This document shows positions 16,268-23,763 of a stretch of DNA of 64,000 nt, in pieces. The translations under genes and the position numbers were made by a program. The notes below the pieces were generated by a model. The model was not told the origin of the DNA. It saw only the letters and a list, made by a program, of their open reading frames with translations, and ran no database searches. The stretch's first letter is position 1; every line of letters starts with the position of its first letter. This DNA comes from an uncultured Lachnospiraceae bacterium (GTDB lineage: Bacteria > Bacillota > Clostridia > Lachnospirales > Lachnospiraceae), in assembly GCA_944380185.1 (NCBI GenBank), contig CALWGV010000046.1, positions 1 to 64,000 on the forward strand, given 5' to 3'.

Positions 16268-17392
16268 TCAACCGGCCGCGCCTCTGACTATACTGTCCAG
16301 CTCCAGCCCTGCATAGACAAGAAGAAAGGGAACCACAATGCGCAGGGCGATCATCACGTCCTTGTCCCAAAGGCAGAATGGCTTCATTTTTCTGTCCCAA
16401 TCCCCCCAGTTGGAGCAAATCAGAAAGGGCAGCCAAAGTGCTAAAAGCATGGCAGCTGCCTCCATGCAAATGCCGGCTGCTCCGCCCTTCAATGCCGCAT
16501 CGTACAGAAAGATCACGGTGGCCAGTATCATCAGCGTATATCCGATAACGGCAATGACCTTTTTCCAGCCTTTCCCGGTGCGAAACCCGGGAATTTTCTT
16601 CCCGTCTCTGCGGCTTCCCGTCAGATCGTCCCTGCGCAGTATCTCCCGCCTCAGCTCTTCTGTACTGCCATACCGGTCTTCCGGCGAAATCGCCGTGCAC
16701 CTGCGGATCACCGGCTCCCATTTCGACGGGATTTTTGCCTCACCGGGTTCTTTGCCGGTGAGCAGAAGACACATCAGCACACCTAGACTGTAGATATCCG
16801 TCCTTCCATCGGTCTGGGCGAAGCCGAACTGCTCCGGAGCGGCAAAACCCACGGTTCCCAACACCTCCGTATCACGGCTCTTTCCGGCCTTGACTTCGCG
16901 GGCAATGCCCAAGTCCAGAAGCTTCACCACCTGATCCGTGGAAATCAGAATGTTGCCGGGATGCAGGTCCCGATGGACGATTCCTTTCTGATGCAGTATT
17001 TCCAGAGCGCCCAGCAGAGAAAGAGCGATCCGCACCGTCTCCCTCTCTGTAAAAACATGTCCTCGTCTCATTCGGTCAGCCAGCGTTTCTCCGCTGACAT
17101 AATCCTGGATCACCATGCAGCGCCCTTCGCCCGCAGCCACAGCCCTCACCCGCACCAGCCCCGGATGTTCAAGATCGATGAGCCTTTCATACACTGTCCG
17201 CTGGGAAAGGGGGACAAATTTTTTCGTCACCAGCCCTTTATCAAGAATACTCTGGCACAGGACGGTCGGATAAGGCTCCTCCCCCGCCAAGACGGTCAGA
17301 TCGCGATAGGAATGCAGCAGATAGTCGTACTGAATCTGCTCCCTCCCCTCCCACTTTTCTTTTTCCGCGCTCTCTTCCTGTATTTTCTTCAT
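16268..17392 (-). CDS. Membrane-bound serine/threonine protein kinase, atypical
   Basis: This 374-aa Hanks-type kinase has a catalytic loop HRDLHPGNILI (about residue 145), the metal motif as DLG instead of DFG in KLLDLGIAR, and the activation segment GTVGFAAPEQFG. The glycine-rich P-loop is not recognisable; VTKKF near residue 57 probably supplies the VAIK lysine. After the kinase domain (about residues 30-260) three membrane segments follow: VIAVIGYTLMILATVIFLY, AAAMLLALWLPFLI and ALRIVVPFLLVYAG. There are no PASTA repeats, so it is not a PrkC-type muropeptide sensor. It diverges from an HTH gene. Substrates are unknown. Confidence 0.85.
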   Translation of the reverse strand: MKKIQEESAEKEKWEGREQIQYDYLLHSYRDLTVLAGEEPYPTVLCQSILDKGLVTKKFVPLSQRTVYERLIDLEHPGLVRVRAVAAGEGRCMVIQDYVSGETLADRMRRGHVFTERETVRIALSLLGALEILHQKGIVHRDLHPGNILISTDQVVKLLDLGIAREVKAGKSRDTEVLGTVGFAAPEQFGFAQTDGRTDIYSLGVLMCLLLTGKEPGEAKIPSKWEPVIRRCTAISPEDRYGSTEELRREILRRDDLTGSRRDGKKIPGFRTGKGWKKVIAVIGYTLMILATVIFLYDAALKGGAAGICMEAAAMLLALWLPFLICSNWGDWDRKMKPFCLWDKDVMIALRIVVPFLLVYAGLELDSIVRGAAG

Positions 17393-17505
17393 TTCCTTTC
17401 CTTCTCCCTTTTTTTATTCGCTATTCTTTCTCTATCCTCTTCCGTCCTATTTTCTTCTTCCCTTCTTTTTCCGTCTTTTGTTACATATATTTACAATTTC
17501 AGCAC

Positions 17506-17550
17506 TTGACCAAACCTCACTCCCACTATACAATGATATCATGTGATATC
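17506..17550 (+). promoter_or_regulatory. Promoter and GATATC-N4-GATATC operator upstream of the HTH gene
   Basis: TTGACC (17506-17511)-N17-TACAAT (17529-17534) is immediately followed by GATATCATGTGATATC (17535-17550), an inverted repeat lying over the expected transcript start. This suggests autorepression by the HTH protein encoded downstream. Confidence 0.6.
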
Positions 17551-17678
17551 AGGGCCCAAAAGTCAAGCGCCGACACAGCCTTACCTGCCCTTACCTGCAG
17601 ATGTATTTTTGTTCAAAAACCTGCCAAGCTATGAAAAATAGCCATTTTTTGCAGAAAAAAGGAGGCCGCACACCAGCA

Positions 17679-18104
17679 ATGACACGCAAAAGCACACAGG
17701 AACTTTTAGAGCTTCTGAAAAATTCCCCCTCTCTGGGGTCTTACCTGGACGGAAACGCCGCAGATCTGAACAGCAGAGACCTGCCTGCGCTTCTGGAGGA
17801 GGCTCTGTCGGAAAAGCAGCTCTCCAAAAGTGAATGCATACGGCGTTCCGGTCTGGACCGCACCTATGCCTACCAGATCTTTTCCGGCCAGAAGAACCCC
17901 GCCAGAGACAAGGTACTGGCTCTGCTCTTGGCCATGGAACTACCCTTCGAGGATGCGCAGCGCTTTCTGCAGCGGGCGGGCTATCCCGTTCTGTATCCGA
18001 AAAACCAGCGGGACTGCGCTTTTATCTATGCTTTTTTGCACCATCTGTCCGTCCTCGAGCTCAACTACATGCTGGACGAACTGGGCGAGCAGCTCTGCAC
18101 ATAG
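17679..18104 (+). CDS. HTH-domain protein, probable transcriptional regulator
   Basis: This 141-aa protein has a Cro/CI-like helix-turn-helix in its middle (ECIRRSGLDRTYAYQIFSGQ, then NPARDKVLALLLAMELPFED) and a C-terminal helical tail. The ATG at 17679 follows AAGGAGG at a long 13-nt spacing; an upstream in-frame start has no ribosome site. It diverges from the membrane kinase, an arrangement that suggests a kinase/regulator pair, possibly with the HTH protein as substrate. That is inference. The gap 18105-18213 holds no gene. Confidence 0.75.
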   Translation: MTRKSTQELLELLKNSPSLGSYLDGNAADLNSRDLPALLEEALSEKQLSKSECIRRSGLDRTYAYQIFSGQKNPARDKVLALLLAMELPFEDAQRFLQRAGYPVLYPKNQRDCAFIYAFLHHLSVLELNYMLDELGEQLCT

Positions 18105-18213: not shown

Positions 18214-18242
18214 TATACATAAAGTCGAAGTTTTGGTATAAT
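18214..18242 (+). promoter_or_regulatory. Promoter of the hydrogenase-sensor cluster
   Basis: TATACA (18214-18219)-N17-TATAAT (18237-18242) lies 46 bp before the first ATG of the cluster. The -10 is perfect and the -35 is four out of six. Confidence 0.5.
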
Positions 18243-18287: not shown

Positions 18288-18539
18288 ATGACAGTCACAA
18301 TCTGTATTGGCAGCTCCTGCCATCTCAAGGGCTCACGGGATGTGGTGGCCCGTCTGCAGAGCCTGATCGCAGACCATGGCCTGGACAGCCAGGTGCAGCT
18401 CTCCGGCTCTTTCTGCAACGGCCACTGCGATCAGGGGGTAGTCGTAACCATCGACGGCAGCGATGAGATCTACTCTGTTTCGCCGGAGACTACCGAGACC
18501 TTTTTCCAGAATGAAATCCTGCCGAGGCTTAACGGATGA
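18288..18539 (+). CDS. Thioredoxin-like [2Fe-2S] ferredoxin, HydC/NuoE type
   Basis: This 83-aa protein has the four cysteines of the thioredoxin-fold [2Fe-2S] family: CIGSSCHLKG at residues 6-11 and CNGHC near residue 44. It is the compact form without the N-terminal helices of NuoE. It likely passes electrons to or from the hydrogenase-like protein that follows, since its stop overlaps the next start (ATGA). AAGGAGGG precedes the ATG. It opens a cluster of four redox/signalling genes. Confidence 0.9.
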   Translation: MTVTICIGSSCHLKGSRDVVARLQSLIADHGLDSQVQLSGSFCNGHCDQGVVVTIDGSDEIYSVSPETTETFFQNEILPRLNG

Positions 18540-20290
18540 AAATCATTGATTTTGGCGGTTCACGCTGCAACCACTGCTATAAATGCGTGCGCAGCTGCGA
18601 TGTAAAGGCTATTGATATCCTGGATTCACAGGCTGTCATCGATACGGACCGCTGTACGCTGTGCGGCCGCTGTCTCACCGTATGTCCCCAGGATGCCAAG
18701 ACCCTTCACAGTGATCTGGCTCTGGCCCAGGAGCTGATTCGTTCCGGCAGACGGACGGTGCTCTCTCTGGATCCCTCTTATCTGGGGCTTCTGTGTGAGT
18801 TTGAACCGGCCCGTTTGGCCGGCGCTCTGCATCGGCTGGGCTTTTGCCAGGTGCGTGAAACGGCGGAGGGGGCGGCCTGCGTCACGGCAGAATATGTCCG
18901 TCTGCTCCAAGAGGGAACAATGGACAATGTCATCTCTTCCAACTGCCCCAGCGCCGCCGCCTATATAGAGATGTACTATCCGGAGTTGATTCCCTTTCTG
19001 GCCCCTGTGGTGTCTCCCATGGTTGCCCACGCCATGCTGATCAAAAAAGAACTGGGCGAGGACACCTGTGTGGTCTATGCCGGCCCCTGCATTGCAGCCC
19101 GGGCCGAGGCGCTGGACCCCCGCCATGGAAGACTGGTGGATGCCGTTCTCGATTTCGATGATCTGACGGCCTGGCTGCAGTCCGAAGACATACATCCTGA
19201 GAATTGCCCGCCTGTCCCCTTTGATAATCCGGATCCGGCCGTCAACCGCCTCTATCCGGTGACGGGCGGCGTTATTGCCTCCGTGGAGACTCTTGAGGAT
19301 GCCCTCGCAAAAAACCGGTCCAGTCAGCTGGACCGCTACCGCAAATTTTACGTGGACGGAGATCGCAACTGTCATGAGCTGTGCGAGAGCATGAAAAGGG
19401 GAGAGATCGACGGCTGTTTTGTGGAAATGAGCATGTGCACCGGCAGCTGTGTCAAAGGACCTCTGAGTCAGGGGCGGGGCGGCAGCCGCTTTAAGCTGCG
19501 GCTGGATTATGAAAAGCTCATTCCCCGCCAAGCTGCCTCCTGCCCCTCTGCTTCTGCTCAAAGCGGTGGGCTCCCCCTGTACAAGGCCTTTTTCAGCCGC
19601 GCCCCCAGAGAGCCCATACCCGACGAAAGGGCGATCCGGGAAATCCTGCAGCGCACCGGCAAGATGACCGCAGCTGATGAGCTCAACTGCGGCGCCTGCG
19701 GCTATCCTACCTGCCGCGATATGGCTGTGGCCGTGTATCAGCGCCGGGCAGAGGTATCCATGTGCGTTCCCTATATGCACGATCAGGCGGCCTCCCTGTC
19801 CAATCTGGTCATGGAGACTTCGCCTAATATCGTCATCATCGCCGACCGCCAGCTGAACGTGCTGGAGTATTCCGCCATCGGTGAGAAATATTTCGGCAAG
19901 AACCGGTCCGAGGCTCTGCACATGAAGATCTCTGATTTCTTTGACCCGGCTAATTTCCTGGAAGTGCTGAACACCAGGCAGAACATTCACGGGCGCAAGG
20001 TGGCCTACCCTCAGTACGATCTGATCACCCTGCAGAATATCGTCTACCTGCCGGACCAGGACGGAGCCCTGGCCACGATCATCGACATCACCGCCTCTGA
20101 GAAGAAGGCCAAGCAGGAGTATGAGCGCAAGCTGAAAACCATCGATATGGCGCAGCAGGTCATCGACAAGCAGATGACAGTAGCCCAGCAGATCGCCGGA
20201 CTTTTGGGCGAAACTACCGCTGAGACCAAGGTGAGTCTGACCAATATCGGCCGGATTCTCCTCTACGAGGGGGAAAATAAGACATGCTGA
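18536..20290 (+). CDS. Sensory-type [FeFe]-hydrogenase with PAS domain (HydS-like)
   Basis: This 584-aa protein has two [4Fe-4S] ferredoxin motifs (CNHCYKCVRSC, CTLCGRCLTVC; about residues 11-50). A divergent H-cluster domain follows: SSNCPSA near residue 134 in place of TSCCPxW, GPCIAARAE near 182 in place of MPCxxKxxE, and EMSMCTGSCVKGP near 296. Next come a Fes-type [4Fe-4S] motif (CGACGYPTC, about 384) and a PAS domain (about 423-525) with a short coiled tail. The proton-relay cysteine of the first motif is replaced, as in hydrogenases thought to sense H2 rather than turn it over. The next gene, a phosphatase, overlaps it by 7 nt. This fits group C3-type sensory hydrogenases from memory of published schemes. 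Confidence 0.88.
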   Translation: MKIIDFGGSRCNHCYKCVRSCDVKAIDILDSQAVIDTDRCTLCGRCLTVCPQDAKTLHSDLALAQELIRSGRRTVLSLDPSYLGLLCEFEPARLAGALHRLGFCQVRETAEGAACVTAEYVRLLQEGTMDNVISSNCPSAAAYIEMYYPELIPFLAPVVSPMVAHAMLIKKELGEDTCVVYAGPCIAARAEALDPRHGRLVDAVLDFDDLTAWLQSEDIHPENCPPVPFDNPDPAVNRLYPVTGGVIASVETLEDALAKNRSSQLDRYRKFYVDGDRNCHELCESMKRGEIDGCFVEMSMCTGSCVKGPLSQGRGGSRFKLRLDYEKLIPRQAASCPSASAQSGGLPLYKAFFSRAPREPIPDERAIREILQRTGKMTAADELNCGACGYPTCRDMAVAVYQRRAEVSMCVPYMHDQAASLSNLVMETSPNIVIIADRQLNVLEYSAIGEKYFGKNRSEALHMKISDFFDPANFLEVLNTRQNIHGRKVAYPQYDLITLQNIVYLPDQDGALATIIDITASEKKAKQEYERKLKTIDMAQQVIDKQMTVAQQIAGLLGETTAETKVSLTNIGRILLYEGENKTC

Positions 20291-21462
20291 TCTGTGCCGA
20301 CTGCGCTTACAAAAGTCTGATTAAATTCCGGGAGGAGCTGTGCGGAGACAAGGTGGAGCTGCTGCGCACCGACGACTCCTATATTATGATTTTAGCCGAC
20401 GGCATGGGCAGCGGAGTCAAAGCCAATATTCTCTCCACGCTGACCTCCAAGATTCTGGGGACCATGTTCTTAAAAGGAGCTACCCTGGAAGAATGCGTGG
20501 AGACCATCATCAAGACCCTGCCGGTCTCTCCGACCCGCCAGGTAGCCTACTCCACCTTCAGCATTCTGCAGGTATTTCGGGATGGCAGAGCATATCTGGT
20601 GGAGTTTGATAATCCCACCTGCCTGCTGATCCGGGACGGCAGCCCCACCCCTATCCCTTTCGTCAGCCGGCAGGTAGCCGGCAGGCTGATCCAGGAGGCC
20701 CGATTTACCGTCCGCATCGGGGACACCTATATTCTGGTCAGCGATGGAGCCATCCACGCAGGAGTCGGCCAGAAGGAAATGGCCTTTGGCTGGGGCTGGG
20801 ACCGTATGGCCCTGTACGCTGCCGGTCATCTGCCGCAGCTGGCCGGGGCCGCCCGAGTCGCCCACGATATCTGCCAGAAGGCGGATCAGCTATACGGCTT
20901 TCGTCCGGGCGACGATACCACTGTGGCCGTCATGCAGATCACGGAAGCCCAGGTAGTCCACCTGATGACCGGCCCGCCTCAGAATCCTGCCGACGATGCA
21001 CGTATCGTGCAGGCTCTGATGAGCGGATGCGCCTACCGCATCGTCTGCGGAGGCACATCCGCCACCATCGTCTCCCGGGAGTTAAAAAAACCTCTGCTGC
21101 CCACCCTGGATTTCTCCGACCCGGAGATCCCGCCGGTAGCTCTGCTGGAGGGTGTCGATCTGGTCACCGAAGGAGTTCTGACTTTAAACCGGGCAGTGAC
21201 GCTGCTTCGCCGCTACACCGGCGGCCCCGGTCCGGATGATGCCCTGTATGCGGAACTTGACAAGGGGAACGCCGGTTCCCGGATCGCCAGAGTGCTCATC
21301 GAACACTGTACGGATCTCAATCTCTACGTGGGACGAGCCGTCAATATGGCCCATCAGAACCCGGATCTCCCCTTTGACCTGGGCATCCGCCAGACCCTGG
21401 TGGATCAGCTGAAAAGCCTGGTCGAGAAGATGGGAAAGAAGGTCACTCTGACTTACTTCTGA
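20284..21462 (+). CDS. SpoIIE/PP2C-type serine phosphatase
   Basis: This 392-aa protein has a PPM/SpoIIE phosphatase domain with metal-binding aspartates in ILADGMGSG (about residue 38), LVSDGAIHAG (about 155) and GDDTTVAVM (about 210). A C-terminal region of about 170 residues of unknown fold follows. No membrane segment is present. It overlaps the PAS-hydrogenase gene, so the two are coupled; the phosphatase is the likely output of the redox or H2 sensor. A similar hydrogenase/PP2C arrangement is known in the hfs clusters of Thermoanaerobacterium. The target phosphoprotein is not evident nearby. Confidence 0.88.
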   Translation: MLICADCAYKSLIKFREELCGDKVELLRTDDSYIMILADGMGSGVKANILSTLTSKILGTMFLKGATLEECVETIIKTLPVSPTRQVAYSTFSILQVFRDGRAYLVEFDNPTCLLIRDGSPTPIPFVSRQVAGRLIQEARFTVRIGDTYILVSDGAIHAGVGQKEMAFGWGWDRMALYAAGHLPQLAGAARVAHDICQKADQLYGFRPGDDTTVAVMQITEAQVVHLMTGPPQNPADDARIVQALMSGCAYRIVCGGTSATIVSRELKKPLLPTLDFSDPEIPPVALLEGVDLVTEGVLTLNRAVTLLRRYTGGPGPDDALYAELDKGNAGSRIARVLIEHCTDLNLYVGRAVNMAHQNPDLPFDLGIRQTLVDQLKSLVEKMGKKVTLTYF

Positions 21463-21520
21463 TCTGCGTCCGCCCATGGGGGTGCAGACAAAACATAAAA
21501 CACAGGAAAAGGAGAAAGAA

Positions 21521-22984
21521 ATGCTTAGTCTGAACCAAAACGACAATATTACAAGCATCAAGGATGCTGTGCTGTGCGAGGTGGCCCGTCTGGCCTACGA
21601 GGGCACCCTGGATGAGAAGAAGGAAAATCTGCCCTTTGAGATGATCCCCGGGCCCAAGGCCAACTTCCGCTGCTGTATCTATAAGGAGAGAGAGATTATC
21701 CGCCAGAGGATCCGCATGGCCGAGGGCAAGGCTCCCGGCGCGGAGAACGACACCAATATCGTCCAGGTCATCAGCTCGGCCTGCGAGGAATGTACCCTGG
21801 GCCACTATCAGGTAACCGACAACTGCCGCCGCTGCATCAGCAAGAAATGTCAGTCCGTATGCCGTTTCGACGCCATCACCATGGAAAAAGACCGTGCCCA
21901 CATCAACATGGACAAGTGCAAAGAGTGCGGCAAGTGCTATCAGGCCTGCCCTTATCACGCCATCGTGGATCTGACTCGCCCCTGCAAGAGAGCCTGTCCT
22001 GTGGATGCCATCAGCTGGGATGAGGCCAGCGGTATTGTGAAAATCGATGAAAAGAAATGTATTCAGTGCGGTGCCTGCACCGAGGCATGCCCTTTCGGCG
22101 CTATCGGTACCCGCAGCTTTATGGTGGATGTGATCAATCTGATCCGCTCCGGCAAGAAGGTCGTCGCCCTGCCTGCTCCGGCCGGCGAAGGCCAGTTTGG
22201 CAAAGGCATCACCATGGGAAGCGTAGCCAAGGGAATCAAAGAGCTGGGCTTTGCCGATGTAGTGGAGGTCGCCCTGGGCGGAGACCTGACTGCCGCTTTT
22301 GAGGCCGACGAGTGGGCTGAAGCCTACAAGGCCGGTGAAAAGAAGGTCACTTCCTGCTGCCCTGCCTTCGTCAATATGGTCAAAAAGCATTTTCCCAGCC
22401 TGATGCCCAACGTGTCCACCACCGTGTCTCCGATGTGCGCCGTTTCCCGCATGGTCAAGGCCAAAGATCCCGACGCCATCACCGTCTTTATCGGGCCCTG
22501 CGTGGCCAAAAAGGACGAGATCCTGGATCTCTCCCTGGATGGCAATGCCGACTACGTGCTGACCTACAATGAGCTGCAGTGCATGTTTGCAGCCAGAAAC
22601 ATAGTCCTGACACCCGACGCGGAAAACATCCAGCACGGCAGTATTTACGGCAAAAAATTTGCCAATTCCGGCGGAGTCACCGCCGCTGTTCTGGAAGCCA
22701 TGAAGGAAAAACACGGCGTGGCCGATGTCAATGTCATGGTCTGCAACGGAGCCGCCGAGTGCAAGAAGGCCCTGATGCTTCTGAAGGCCGGCCGTCTCCC
22801 CGCGGATTTTGTGGAGGGCATGGCCTGCGAAGGAGGCTGTGTGGCTGGACCCGGCTGCGCCAAATGTGAGTTTGACGCCAGAAAGGACCGTCAGGCTCTG
22901 CTTGCTCAGGCCGACGACCGCGAGATCTGGCAGAACCTGAACGAGCATGTGGATCTGGAGTCCTTCTCGATGCACCGCAAATAA
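21521..22984 (+). CDS. [FeFe]-hydrogenase, probable group B monomeric type
   Basis: This 487-aa enzyme has four Cys-rich [4Fe-4S] motifs in its first half (CRRCISKKCQSVC, CKECGKCYQAC, CKRACP, CIQCGACTEAC). The H-cluster domain has L1 TSCCPAF (about residue 277), L2 IGPCVAKKDE (about 324) and L3 GMACEGGCVAGPG (about 433). Both L1 cysteines are kept, so it should be catalytic, oxidising or evolving H2 with ferredoxin. The Phe in L1 and the GPCVAKK form of L2 fit group B as I recall it. It is 58 bp after the phosphatase with an AAGGAG site at 21509-21514. Confidence 0.9.
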   Translation: MLSLNQNDNITSIKDAVLCEVARLAYEGTLDEKKENLPFEMIPGPKANFRCCIYKEREIIRQRIRMAEGKAPGAENDTNIVQVISSACEECTLGHYQVTDNCRRCISKKCQSVCRFDAITMEKDRAHINMDKCKECGKCYQACPYHAIVDLTRPCKRACPVDAISWDEASGIVKIDEKKCIQCGACTEACPFGAIGTRSFMVDVINLIRSGKKVVALPAPAGEGQFGKGITMGSVAKGIKELGFADVVEVALGGDLTAAFEADEWAEAYKAGEKKVTSCCPAFVNMVKKHFPSLMPNVSTTVSPMCAVSRMVKAKDPDAITVFIGPCVAKKDEILDLSLDGNADYVLTYNELQCMFAARNIVLTPDAENIQHGSIYGKKFANSGGVTAAVLEAMKEKHGVADVNVMVCNGAAECKKALMLLKAGRLPADFVEGMACEGGCVAGPGCAKCEFDARKDRQALLAQADDREIWQNLNEHVDLESFSMHRK

Positions 22985-23007: not shown

Positions 23008-23763
23008 ATGAAACTGATTTCCTGGAATGTCAACGGTCTGCGGGCCTGCCTGCAGAAAGGATTTATGGATTATTTCAAGGAGGCCGATGCCGATATCTTC
23101 TGCATCCAGGAATCCAAGCTGCAGGAAGGCCAGGTAGAACTGCAGCTGCCCGGCTACCGGCAGTATTGGAACTATGCAGAAAAAAAAGGCTACTCCGGCA
23201 CGGCTGTCTTTGCCAAAAAAGAGCCCTTGAACGTCTCCTATGGAATCGGCATAGACGAGCATGACCATGAGGGACGGGTCATCACTCTGGAATATCCGGA
23301 TTTCTATGTGATCACCGTCTACACCCCCAATTCCCAGGACGGACTGGCCAGACTCCCTTACCGGATGCAGTGGGAGGAAGCCTTTTTATCCTACCTAAAA
23401 AAACTGGAAGAAAATAAACCGGTGATCTTCTGCGGTGATCTCAACGTCGCCCACAGGGAAATCGACCTGAAAAATCCCAAGACCAACCGCAAGAACGCCG
23501 GCTTCACCGACGAGGAGAGAGCCTGCTTTTCCCATCTGCTGAATTCCGGCTTTATCGACACCTTCCGCTACTTTTATCCCGATGCCACAGGCATCTATTC
23601 CTGGTGGTCCTACCGCTTTCAGGCCCGCGCCAAAAACGCTGGCTGGCGCATCGATTATTTCTGTGTCTCAGAAGGGCTTCGCGACAGGCTGGTGAGCGCC
23701 GCGATCCACACAGAAATCATGGGGTCAGACCACTGCCCGGTGGAACTGGTGATCCGGGACTGA
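23008..23763 (+). CDS. xth: Exodeoxyribonuclease III / AP endonuclease
   Basis: This 251-aa Mg-dependent nuclease of base-excision repair has all motifs of the ExoIII branch: SWNVNGLRA, catalytic Glu in IQESK, the YxxR-type region in VYTPNSQDGLARLPYRM, GDLNVAH, and the C-terminal GSDHCPVEL. The AAGGAG ribosome site lies in the 23-bp gap after the hydrogenase, so it is probably cotranscribed with it. A link to oxidative damage is possible but unproven. Confidence 0.97.
   Translation: MKLISWNVNGLRACLQKGFMDYFKEADADIFCIQESKLQEGQVELQLPGYRQYWNYAEKKGYSGTAVFAKKEPLNVSYGIGIDEHDHEGRVITLEYPDFYVITVYTPNSQDGLARLPYRMQWEEAFLSYLKKLEENKPVIFCGDLNVAHREIDLKNPKTNRKNAGFTDEERACFSHLLNSGFIDTFRYFYPDATGIYSWWSYRFQARAKNAGWRIDYFCVSEGLRDRLVSAAIHTEIMGSDHCPVELVIRD

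Follow-up and report, generated by a model that had tools for sequence, protein, structure and literature searches.

Four adjoining genes in a 64,000-nucleotide (nt) stretch from an uncultured Lachnospiraceae bacterium (contig CALWGV010000046.1; this whole stretch is referred to as the window) most probably form an hfsABCD-type operon. In it, a group C3 sensory [FeFe]-hydrogenase (HfsB) is paired with HfsC, a dedicated phosphatase of the SpoIIE/PP2C type, and HfsD, a group B hydrogenase, lies alongside; the output would be protein dephosphorylation controlled by H2 or redox state. The genes lie on one strand in A-B-C-D order; hfsA and hfsB overlap by 4 nt, hfsB and hfsC by 7 nt, and hfsC and hfsD are separated by a gap of 13 nt. 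Open reading frame calls together with Pfam and NCBIfam matches place all four on the plus strand at the coordinates and with the domains given by the initial annotation. The same gene order is seen again in other genomes, thus the arrangement is not a product of chance. The genes, with three segments of hfsB, are as follows (aa, amino acids; all on the plus strand).

18288..18539, +: hfsA, 83 aa, thioredoxin-like [2Fe-2S] protein with four Cys (CIGSSC ... FCNGHC) (Pfam PF01257).
18536..20290, +: hfsB/hydS, 584 aa, sensory [FeFe]-hydrogenase-like protein (Pfam, AlphaFold2).
18935..18952, +: L1 segment of hfsB, SSNCPS; the position of C299 in CpI is Asn, the ligand Cys (residue 137) is retained.
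19082..19108, +: L2 segment of hfsB, GPCIAARAE; the position of K358 in CpI is Ala, then Arg.
20150..20230, +: tail at the C-terminal end of hfsB, AQQVIDKQMTVAQQIAGLLGETTAETK, one of the best-conserved parts of the protein and the proposed output element to HfsC.
20284..21462, +: hfsC, 392 aa, SpoIIE/PP2C phosphatase (1–221) plus a conserved C-terminal alpha/beta domain (222–392).
21476..22984, +: hfsD, 502 aa, [FeFe]-hydrogenase of group B whose H-cluster residues are canonical (TIGR04105).

HfsB displays Pfam matches to Fe_hyd_lg_C (E-value = 4.5e-46), Fer4, FeS (PF04060, E-value = 1.1e-11, 44.7 bits with a cut-off of 23) and PAS (E-value = 5.4e-5, 23.6 bits with a cut-off of 22.6), and the PAS domain is situated behind the FeS domain as in group C3. 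The protein comprises two [4Fe-4S] motifs, the H-domain (88–309), the FeS domain Cx2Cx4Cx16C (385–410), the PAS domain (about 425–517) and a helical hairpin (519–580). The AlphaFold2 model has a mean predicted local distance difference test score (pLDDT) of 88.1, with 54–85 per block in the C-terminal hairpin. The H-cluster motifs, which had been described as altered, read SSNCP (L1), GPCIAAR (L2), and EMSMCTGSC (L3). HfsB remains below the NCBIfam cut-offs for catalytic enzymes (TIGR02512, group A, 75.8 of 406 bits; TIGR04105, group B, 178.7 of 450 bits) and carries sensory signatures. The initial annotation took the first hydrogenase to be sensory and stated that placement among catalytic groups would argue otherwise; with the group A and B models no such placement is obtained. 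Four H-cluster Cys, a PAS domain and a co-encoded Ser/Thr phosphatase, three traits of group C3, are all present, and by domains and gene context HfsB is predicted to be a HydDB group C3 sensory [FeFe]-hydrogenase.

The Fe_hyd_lg_C domain with its four Cys ligands would also fit a second catalytic hydrogenase for which HfsC is a mere genomic neighbor. This is very improbable given the scores under both catalytic cut-offs, the PAS domain, the pairing with HfsC, and the M497 position (pocket residues carry CpI numbers), where 94 of 99 HfsB sequences have N or S but 50 of 50 HfsD sequences have M.

HfsC shows a SpoIIE match in Pfam (E-value = 4.6e-14). Residues D22, D39, D154, D210, and D211, which we take to be the Asp residues of the PP2C metal site, are invariant in 55 sequences. 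The metal site of the phosphatase is intact as judged from the alignment, and activity is predicted. In a predicted structure (pLDDT 89.9, with high confidence over most of the C-terminal domain) the first PP2C strand starts at residue 3. Thus HfsC begins at the PP2C core and is without an N-terminal sensor linker of its own.

A genome set consisting of the window's own genome and 60 relatives (61 in all) was searched for both proteins. Full-length HfsB scores at least 329 bits and the next match 131 bits; matches of 131 bits or less, which are other hydrogenases, were left out. HfsB is found at 20 loci in 19 of the 61 genomes (in G039 its frame is split into two). HfsC likewise has 20 loci, all within those 19 genomes, and adjoins HfsB at 20/20. 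A wider comparison covers 97 other distinct loci, i.e. 19 from the relatives and 78 named loci; the latter stem from the best 80 of at least 570 HfsC relatives, with L063 and L091 removed as repeats of relatives. HfsB is upstream of HfsC on the same strand at 97/97, with one gap of 1057 nt.

In a set of 249 genomes of the phylum (HfsB counted from 134 bits upward, with rows up to 90 bits and one of two pieces of a single HfsC in G175 removed) there are 89 HfsB sequences, 93 matches to the HfsC C-terminal domain, and 88 linked pairs. The sole unlinked HfsB has its HfsC cut by a contig end (L152). The five C-terminal domain matches without HfsB consist of an orphan HfsC (L151:9587-10726 in G065), a fragment close to the end of a contig (L153), and three domains that stand alone. 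The orphan shows a changed ELCGD motif and lacks the PP2C helix-1 region in a frame that remains open, and appears to be degraded in its PP2C core. HfsB and HfsC are therefore a near-obligate pair, newly measured here. The initial annotation had tied the phosphatase to the sensor and held that genomes in which the two are never linked would speak against this; the link is present at all 20 loci of the 61 genomes and all 97 other loci, and an HfsC without HfsB exists in G065. A variant layout is seen at L115:5192-8989 (Clostridium ganghwense), where two HfsB genes, one with Phe at C299, lie 5′ of one HfsC.

Fe-S ligands aside, conservation in HfsB is strongest in the tail, AQxVIxKQMxVAQxIAxLLGETTAETK. 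Over seven pairs within the genus, residues 535–575 share 93–98% identity, with a ratio of nonsynonymous to synonymous substitution rates (dN/dS) of 0.010–0.040 where dS is defined. AlphaFold2 predicts for the tail, with modest confidence, a helix of 38 residues that leads through a short turn into another helix.

With these components, HfsA and the HfsB Fe-S chain would equilibrate with the electron pool of the cell, and with H2 at the H-site. The state of HfsB would pass via the FeS and PAS domains to the highly conserved C-terminal helical hairpin, which would act in trans on HfsC, itself without an RsbU-type N-terminal linker. HfsC would then dephosphorylate a Ser/Thr phosphoprotein, and dephosphorylation would shift fermentation between H2/acetate and ethanol (compare the hfs deletions in Thermoanaerobacterium, below).

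The C-terminal domain of HfsC (222–392) gives no match over cut-off in Pfam (7 copies) or NCBIfam (5 copies), and no credible PDB relative in a profile search. A Foldseek search with the whole of HfsC returned 1071 matches; the best 50 are all PP2C chains, including SpoIIE, RsbU-RsbW, and RsbX, and among these 50 no structural match to the C-terminal fold is found. A SIS fold, prompted by a weak PDB profile match (E-value = 0.029), was rejected after profile comparison with three E. coli K-12 SIS proteins (probability 1.2%). One scan of viral contigs showed no HfsC relatives. The domain does occur as a stand-alone protein of 156–159 aa in three genomes that belong to a single genus (E-value = 6.5e-24, 6.6e-24, and 1.4e-20), where its gene immediately follows hydA in a set of nuoE-nuoF-hydA-like genes (L143:9623-10102, L144:8945-9415, L145:8599-9075). 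This location suggests that the role of the domain is tied to the hydrogenase itself, e.g. in docking.

HfsA matches 2Fe-2S_thioredx (PF01257, E-value = 6.5e-7), and its four-Cys pattern is also found in 13 other short HfsA sequences compared. The hfsA gene is present in 66/97 other distinct loci (15/19 from relatives and 51/78 named) and hfsD in 51/97, some loci being cut by contig ends. An apparent HfsA-HfsB fusion in G003 (705-aa frame) was discarded, as the open frame is merely extended upstream and overlaps with a distinct hfsA that is read in a different frame. HfsD displays a Fe_hyd_lg_C match (E-value = 1.2e-61) and belongs to group B (TIGR04105 FeFe_hydrog_B1, 581 bits with a cut-off of 450). 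Its motifs are canonical (L1 TSCCP, L2 GPCVAKK, L3 EGMACEGGC), which agrees with the earlier description of a second [FeFe]-hydrogenase having both L1 cysteines. Within the window's clade, dN/dS of HfsD is 0.012–0.030. Several relatives begin HfsD about 15 codons further downstream (MLSLNQ). The HfsB-HfsC pair may plausibly tune the second hydrogenase; HfsD is unlikely as a universal HfsC target, because hfsD is found in 51/97 loci (some cut by contig ends).

Comparable gene sets are described in the literature. Passages on hfsABCD of Thermoanaerobacterium saccharolyticum present HfsB as a PAS [FeFe]-hydrogenase, HfsC as serine-phosphatase-like and HfsD as a ferredoxin-linked hydrogenase (PMC5707799, PMC11837493), the same four-gene A–D set and protein types as in the window. 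In Thermoanaerobacterium, according to the same passages, ethanol rises when hfsA or hfsB is deleted but not when hfsC or hfsD is, from which the authors conclude that the effect is regulatory (PMC5707799, PMC11837493). HfsA of T. saccharolyticum is stated to align poorly with known proteins (PMC11837493), whereas HfsA of the window is 2Fe-2S thioredoxin-like; set against the published description, HfsB of the window is without C299 and K358. Group C3 appears in the HydDB paper as ‘phosphatase-linked (putative)’ with its role marked undetermined (PMC5037454), and its sensory H-domain and co-encoded Ser/Thr phosphatase are as in the window; the changed H-site and the measured pairing go beyond that description and come from this analysis. 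In Catenibacillus (Lachnospiraceae), a C3 sensory hydrogenase gene is situated upstream of a B-type hydrogenase (PMC11170127). This is the same pairing, and Lachnospiraceae is the family of the nearest named loci (among the best 80 of at least 570); the passage on Catenibacillus is silent on a phosphatase, on pocket residues and on the C-terminal domain. A passage on Ruminococcus albus describes a putative cluster of eight genes, among them those for a sensory hydrogenase, a ferredoxin-only hydrogenase and an alcohol/aldehyde dehydrogenase, which drops 111-fold in co-culture (PMC6776011). RsbU-type PP2C phosphatases, as described in PMC12143880, likewise place a SpoIIE/PP2C domain under sensor control. 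Unlike in RsbU, the sensor of HfsC is a separate protein, HfsC has no N-terminal linker and has an extra C-terminal domain, and there is no STAS or RsbW partner within the window's cluster.

The H-cluster pocket was compared in an alignment of 99 HfsB, 50 HfsD, and 25 HydA sequences, in which L1 and L2 are missing from one HfsB fragment; two pairs of repeats, L063/L047 and L091/L049, each of them C/K, were kept. The ligand Cys residues are retained in all HfsB sequences that could be read there, that of the window included (C300 98/98, C355 98/98, C499 99/99, C503 99/99), and residues C137, P184, and C185 of HfsB are invariant. C299 is Cys in 77/98 and K358 is Lys in 89/98 HfsB sequences, and all 9 without K358 fall within the 21 without C299 (Fisher p = 1.9e-7, without kinship correction). 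Both residues are retained in 25/25 HydA and 50/50 HfsD. On a tree with both columns masked (a quick method, with support from the Shimodaira-Hasegawa-like approximate likelihood ratio test, SH-aLRT, only), 10 changes fall on C299 and 4 on K358. The window together with G001 and G004 forms a clade with full support, carrying N/A, S/A, and A/A at the C299/K358 positions; the next relatives G003, G005, and G006 carry C/K. The H-domain of the window's clade is under purifying selection, with dN/dS of 0.067–0.141 against 0.152–0.224 in the intact relatives, rough values at high dS.

K358 corresponds to Lys237 of the Desulfovibrio desulfuricans enzyme (DdH) by a numbering offset of 121, the same offset that links C299 to DdH C178, and Lys237 is described as salt-bridged to one CN ligand (PMC13321311). 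Since both C299, the Cys of the proton relay, and K358 are lost, fast H2 turnover by HfsB of the window's clade is unlikely. TmHydS of Thermotoga maritima, as described in PMC10055695, resembles HfsB of the window in a replaced C299 (Ala, where the window has Asn), M353->Gly, M497->Ser, and a PAS domain. The same source describes the residues that hydrogen-bond the [2Fe] cofactor as conserved in sensory types (PMC10055695); unlike these, HfsB of the window has lost the cyanide-binding lysine known from the catalytic enzymes. This hydrogen-bonding trait, which is not a HydDB criterion, is absent at K358 (Ala), the sole residue checked. We infer that the signal read by HfsB of the window would be either slow H2 binding or the redox state. 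Thus, of the earlier proposal that the first protein senses H2 or redox state, the sensor type stands, but H2 as the signal is uncertain because the pocket is changed.

These substitutions raise the possibility, tentative at best, that HfsB of the window is a pseudo-hydrogenase, which keeps the [4Fe-4S] part of the H-site but has no functional [2Fe] subcluster, and from which HfsC would learn the redox state or the Fe-S status. The changes C299->N and K358->A, next to four intact ligand Cys, the loss of K358 only among C299-less sequences in four changes on the tree, the persisting purifying selection, and the described role of Lys237 would all fit. H-domain relatives such as Nar1/NARF, retained without H2 metabolism, are a parallel. 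NARF is named as a homologue that does not metabolize H2 in the HydDB paper (PMC5037454). A basic residue, however, persists beside the K358 position (R, K, and R in the three K358-less genomes of the genus), TmHydS is reported as active despite Ala at C299 (PMC10055695), and an independent-pairs test has only 4 pairs, too few for significance (3 the same way, 0 opposite, about 1 without difference).

The maturases HydF and HydG, neither of which is found over cut-off in the genus, bear on this as well. HydG gives no match at E-value 1e-30 in 7/7 genomes of the genus, and none at 0.001 in the window's own genome; the best HydF matches in the 7 genomes (E-value = 2e-27 to 4e-24) are under the cut-off, and in four genomes they span the GTPase part only. 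Neither maturase is over cut-off in 24/47 genomes with an HfsB match at E-value 1e-20 (own genome included), made up of 18 other relatives and the six genomes of the genus that carry hfs. The gap may stem from divergent maturases, from assembly gaps, or from another supply route. A passage on Clostridium acetogens likewise reports that a recognizable HydG was not found in 5/8, and atypical candidates are discussed (PMC9431212). Absence of both maturases would favor the pseudo-hydrogenase, but three of these six genomes (G003, G005, G006), likewise without recognized maturases, retain C299 and K358, and the adjoining HfsD keeps every key residue under strong selection, so that an H-cluster supply probably exists.

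A joint proposal, in which pseudo-hydrogenase sensors in three genomes of the genus and at least three other lineages report redox via the hairpin and the HfsC C-terminal domain is a separable hydrogenase-associated module, is held to be rather doubtful. In its stronger form, the genus may also build hydrogenases without recognizable HydF and HydG.

Partner switching, in which HfsC would dephosphorylate a STAS protein phosphorylated by an RsbW-like HATPase, is a further and rather improbable explanation. (‘RsbW-like’ and ‘group-D-like’ are labels of this analysis; the families at L059 were confirmed by profile match.) An RsbW-like gene is present in the hfs stretch at 9/97 other distinct loci, in L079 and L083 as part of the same uninterrupted gene run as hfs, and the L059 copy shows HATPase_c and HATPase_c_2 over cut-off. 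Among the 61 genomes, 10 have both the RsbW-like gene and hfsBC, 9 hfsBC only, 5 the RsbW-like gene only, and 37 neither (p = 0.001, without kinship correction). The protein is found, however, in 0/7 genomes of the window's genus, and in the window's own genome (assembly 84% complete) only one STAS and one HATPase_c_2 protein are over cut-off. By gene order these are spoIIAA and spoIIAB beside a sigma factor, and no STAS substrate with an RsbW-type kinase beyond this spoIIA pair is found for HfsC there. The loci with an RsbW-like HATPase near hfs are L059, L065, L068, L071, L079, L083, L093, L107, and L049. Several of them also carry, where the stretch reaches, a 440-aa group-D-like hydrogenase and DRTGG and PHP proteins.

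Three further features lie upstream of hfsA.

18214..18242, +: sigma-70-like promoter site, 10/12 consensus with extended TG, ending 45 base pairs 5′ of hfsA; scored on consensus alone, with 8 sites in the region scanned, where shuffled sequence gives 3.4 on average.
17601..18104, +: gene for a helix-turn-helix (HTH)-like protein, judged no core part.
16268..17392, -: Ser/Thr protein kinase gene (Pfam Pkinase, E-value = 6.2e-34), judged outside the system.

The initial annotation had offered this kinase as the opponent of HfsC, with its co-occurrence with the cluster in other genomes as a check. It lies about 0.9 kilobases upstream on the opposite strand, with gene 17601–18104 between, and a close orthologue (75%) is at the same place in the closest relative. 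This is the only such orthologue among the 60 other relatives (next best 33%), and one is beside hfs at only 1/97 other distinct loci; in G004, with an HfsB of about 80% identity, the hfs locus shows no copy of the kinase. The product of 17601–18104 shows a weak HTH match (E-value = 0.038, below cut-off), and its gene adjoins hfs at 2/97 other loci, those of the two closest relatives, one of them without the kinase. Distant kinase homologues have an HTH homologue divergently beside them in 7/8 stretches (the eighth, L159, gave none), thus the kinase and HTH gene look like a module of their own. The kinase as opponent is largely refuted, and its chance of being correct is judged to be very slight. 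Promoter-like sites are present between the divergent pair 16268–18104, at 17506–17566. Downstream, an ExoIII gene (23008–23763) was rejected as an hfs part, with matches in 2 loci only, both upstream and none behind hfsD. The C-terminal end of a third [FeFe]-hydrogenase is found at a contig edge of the window's own genome (G000:C11:3-302, L062).

Several points weigh against the hfsABCD-type signaling operon proposed here. The match to hfs of T. saccharolyticum is one of domains and published description. The action of the HfsB tail as an RsbU-type linker in trans on HfsC is something that we infer from conservation. SpoIIE itself is described as lacking the helical linker (PMC12143880), so that absence of the linker in HfsC alone proves little. 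A phosphatase substrate was not found in the 84% complete assembly, where the STAS and HATPase_c_2 proteins are the spoIIA pair. HydF and HydG under cut-off in 7/7 genomes of the genus are an ill fit with a working H-cluster.

Since the hfs, C3, and C3 plus B sets are already in print, the kind of system is not new. What is new is the degraded-sensor variant and the stand-alone HfsC partner domain, within a known system. In the passages of the literature drawn on here, the signaling route of the hfs sensor is unsettled, although hfsB deletions raise ethanol yield. The near-obligate pair, the almost invariant tail, the linker-less phosphatase, and the separable domain make the signaling step directly testable. 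Where the proton-relay residue and the cyanide-binding lysine are lost together, with four changes on the tree, nature provides an experiment on the requirements of a hydrogen sensor. Should the degraded sensors still signal, their input would be redox and not H2.

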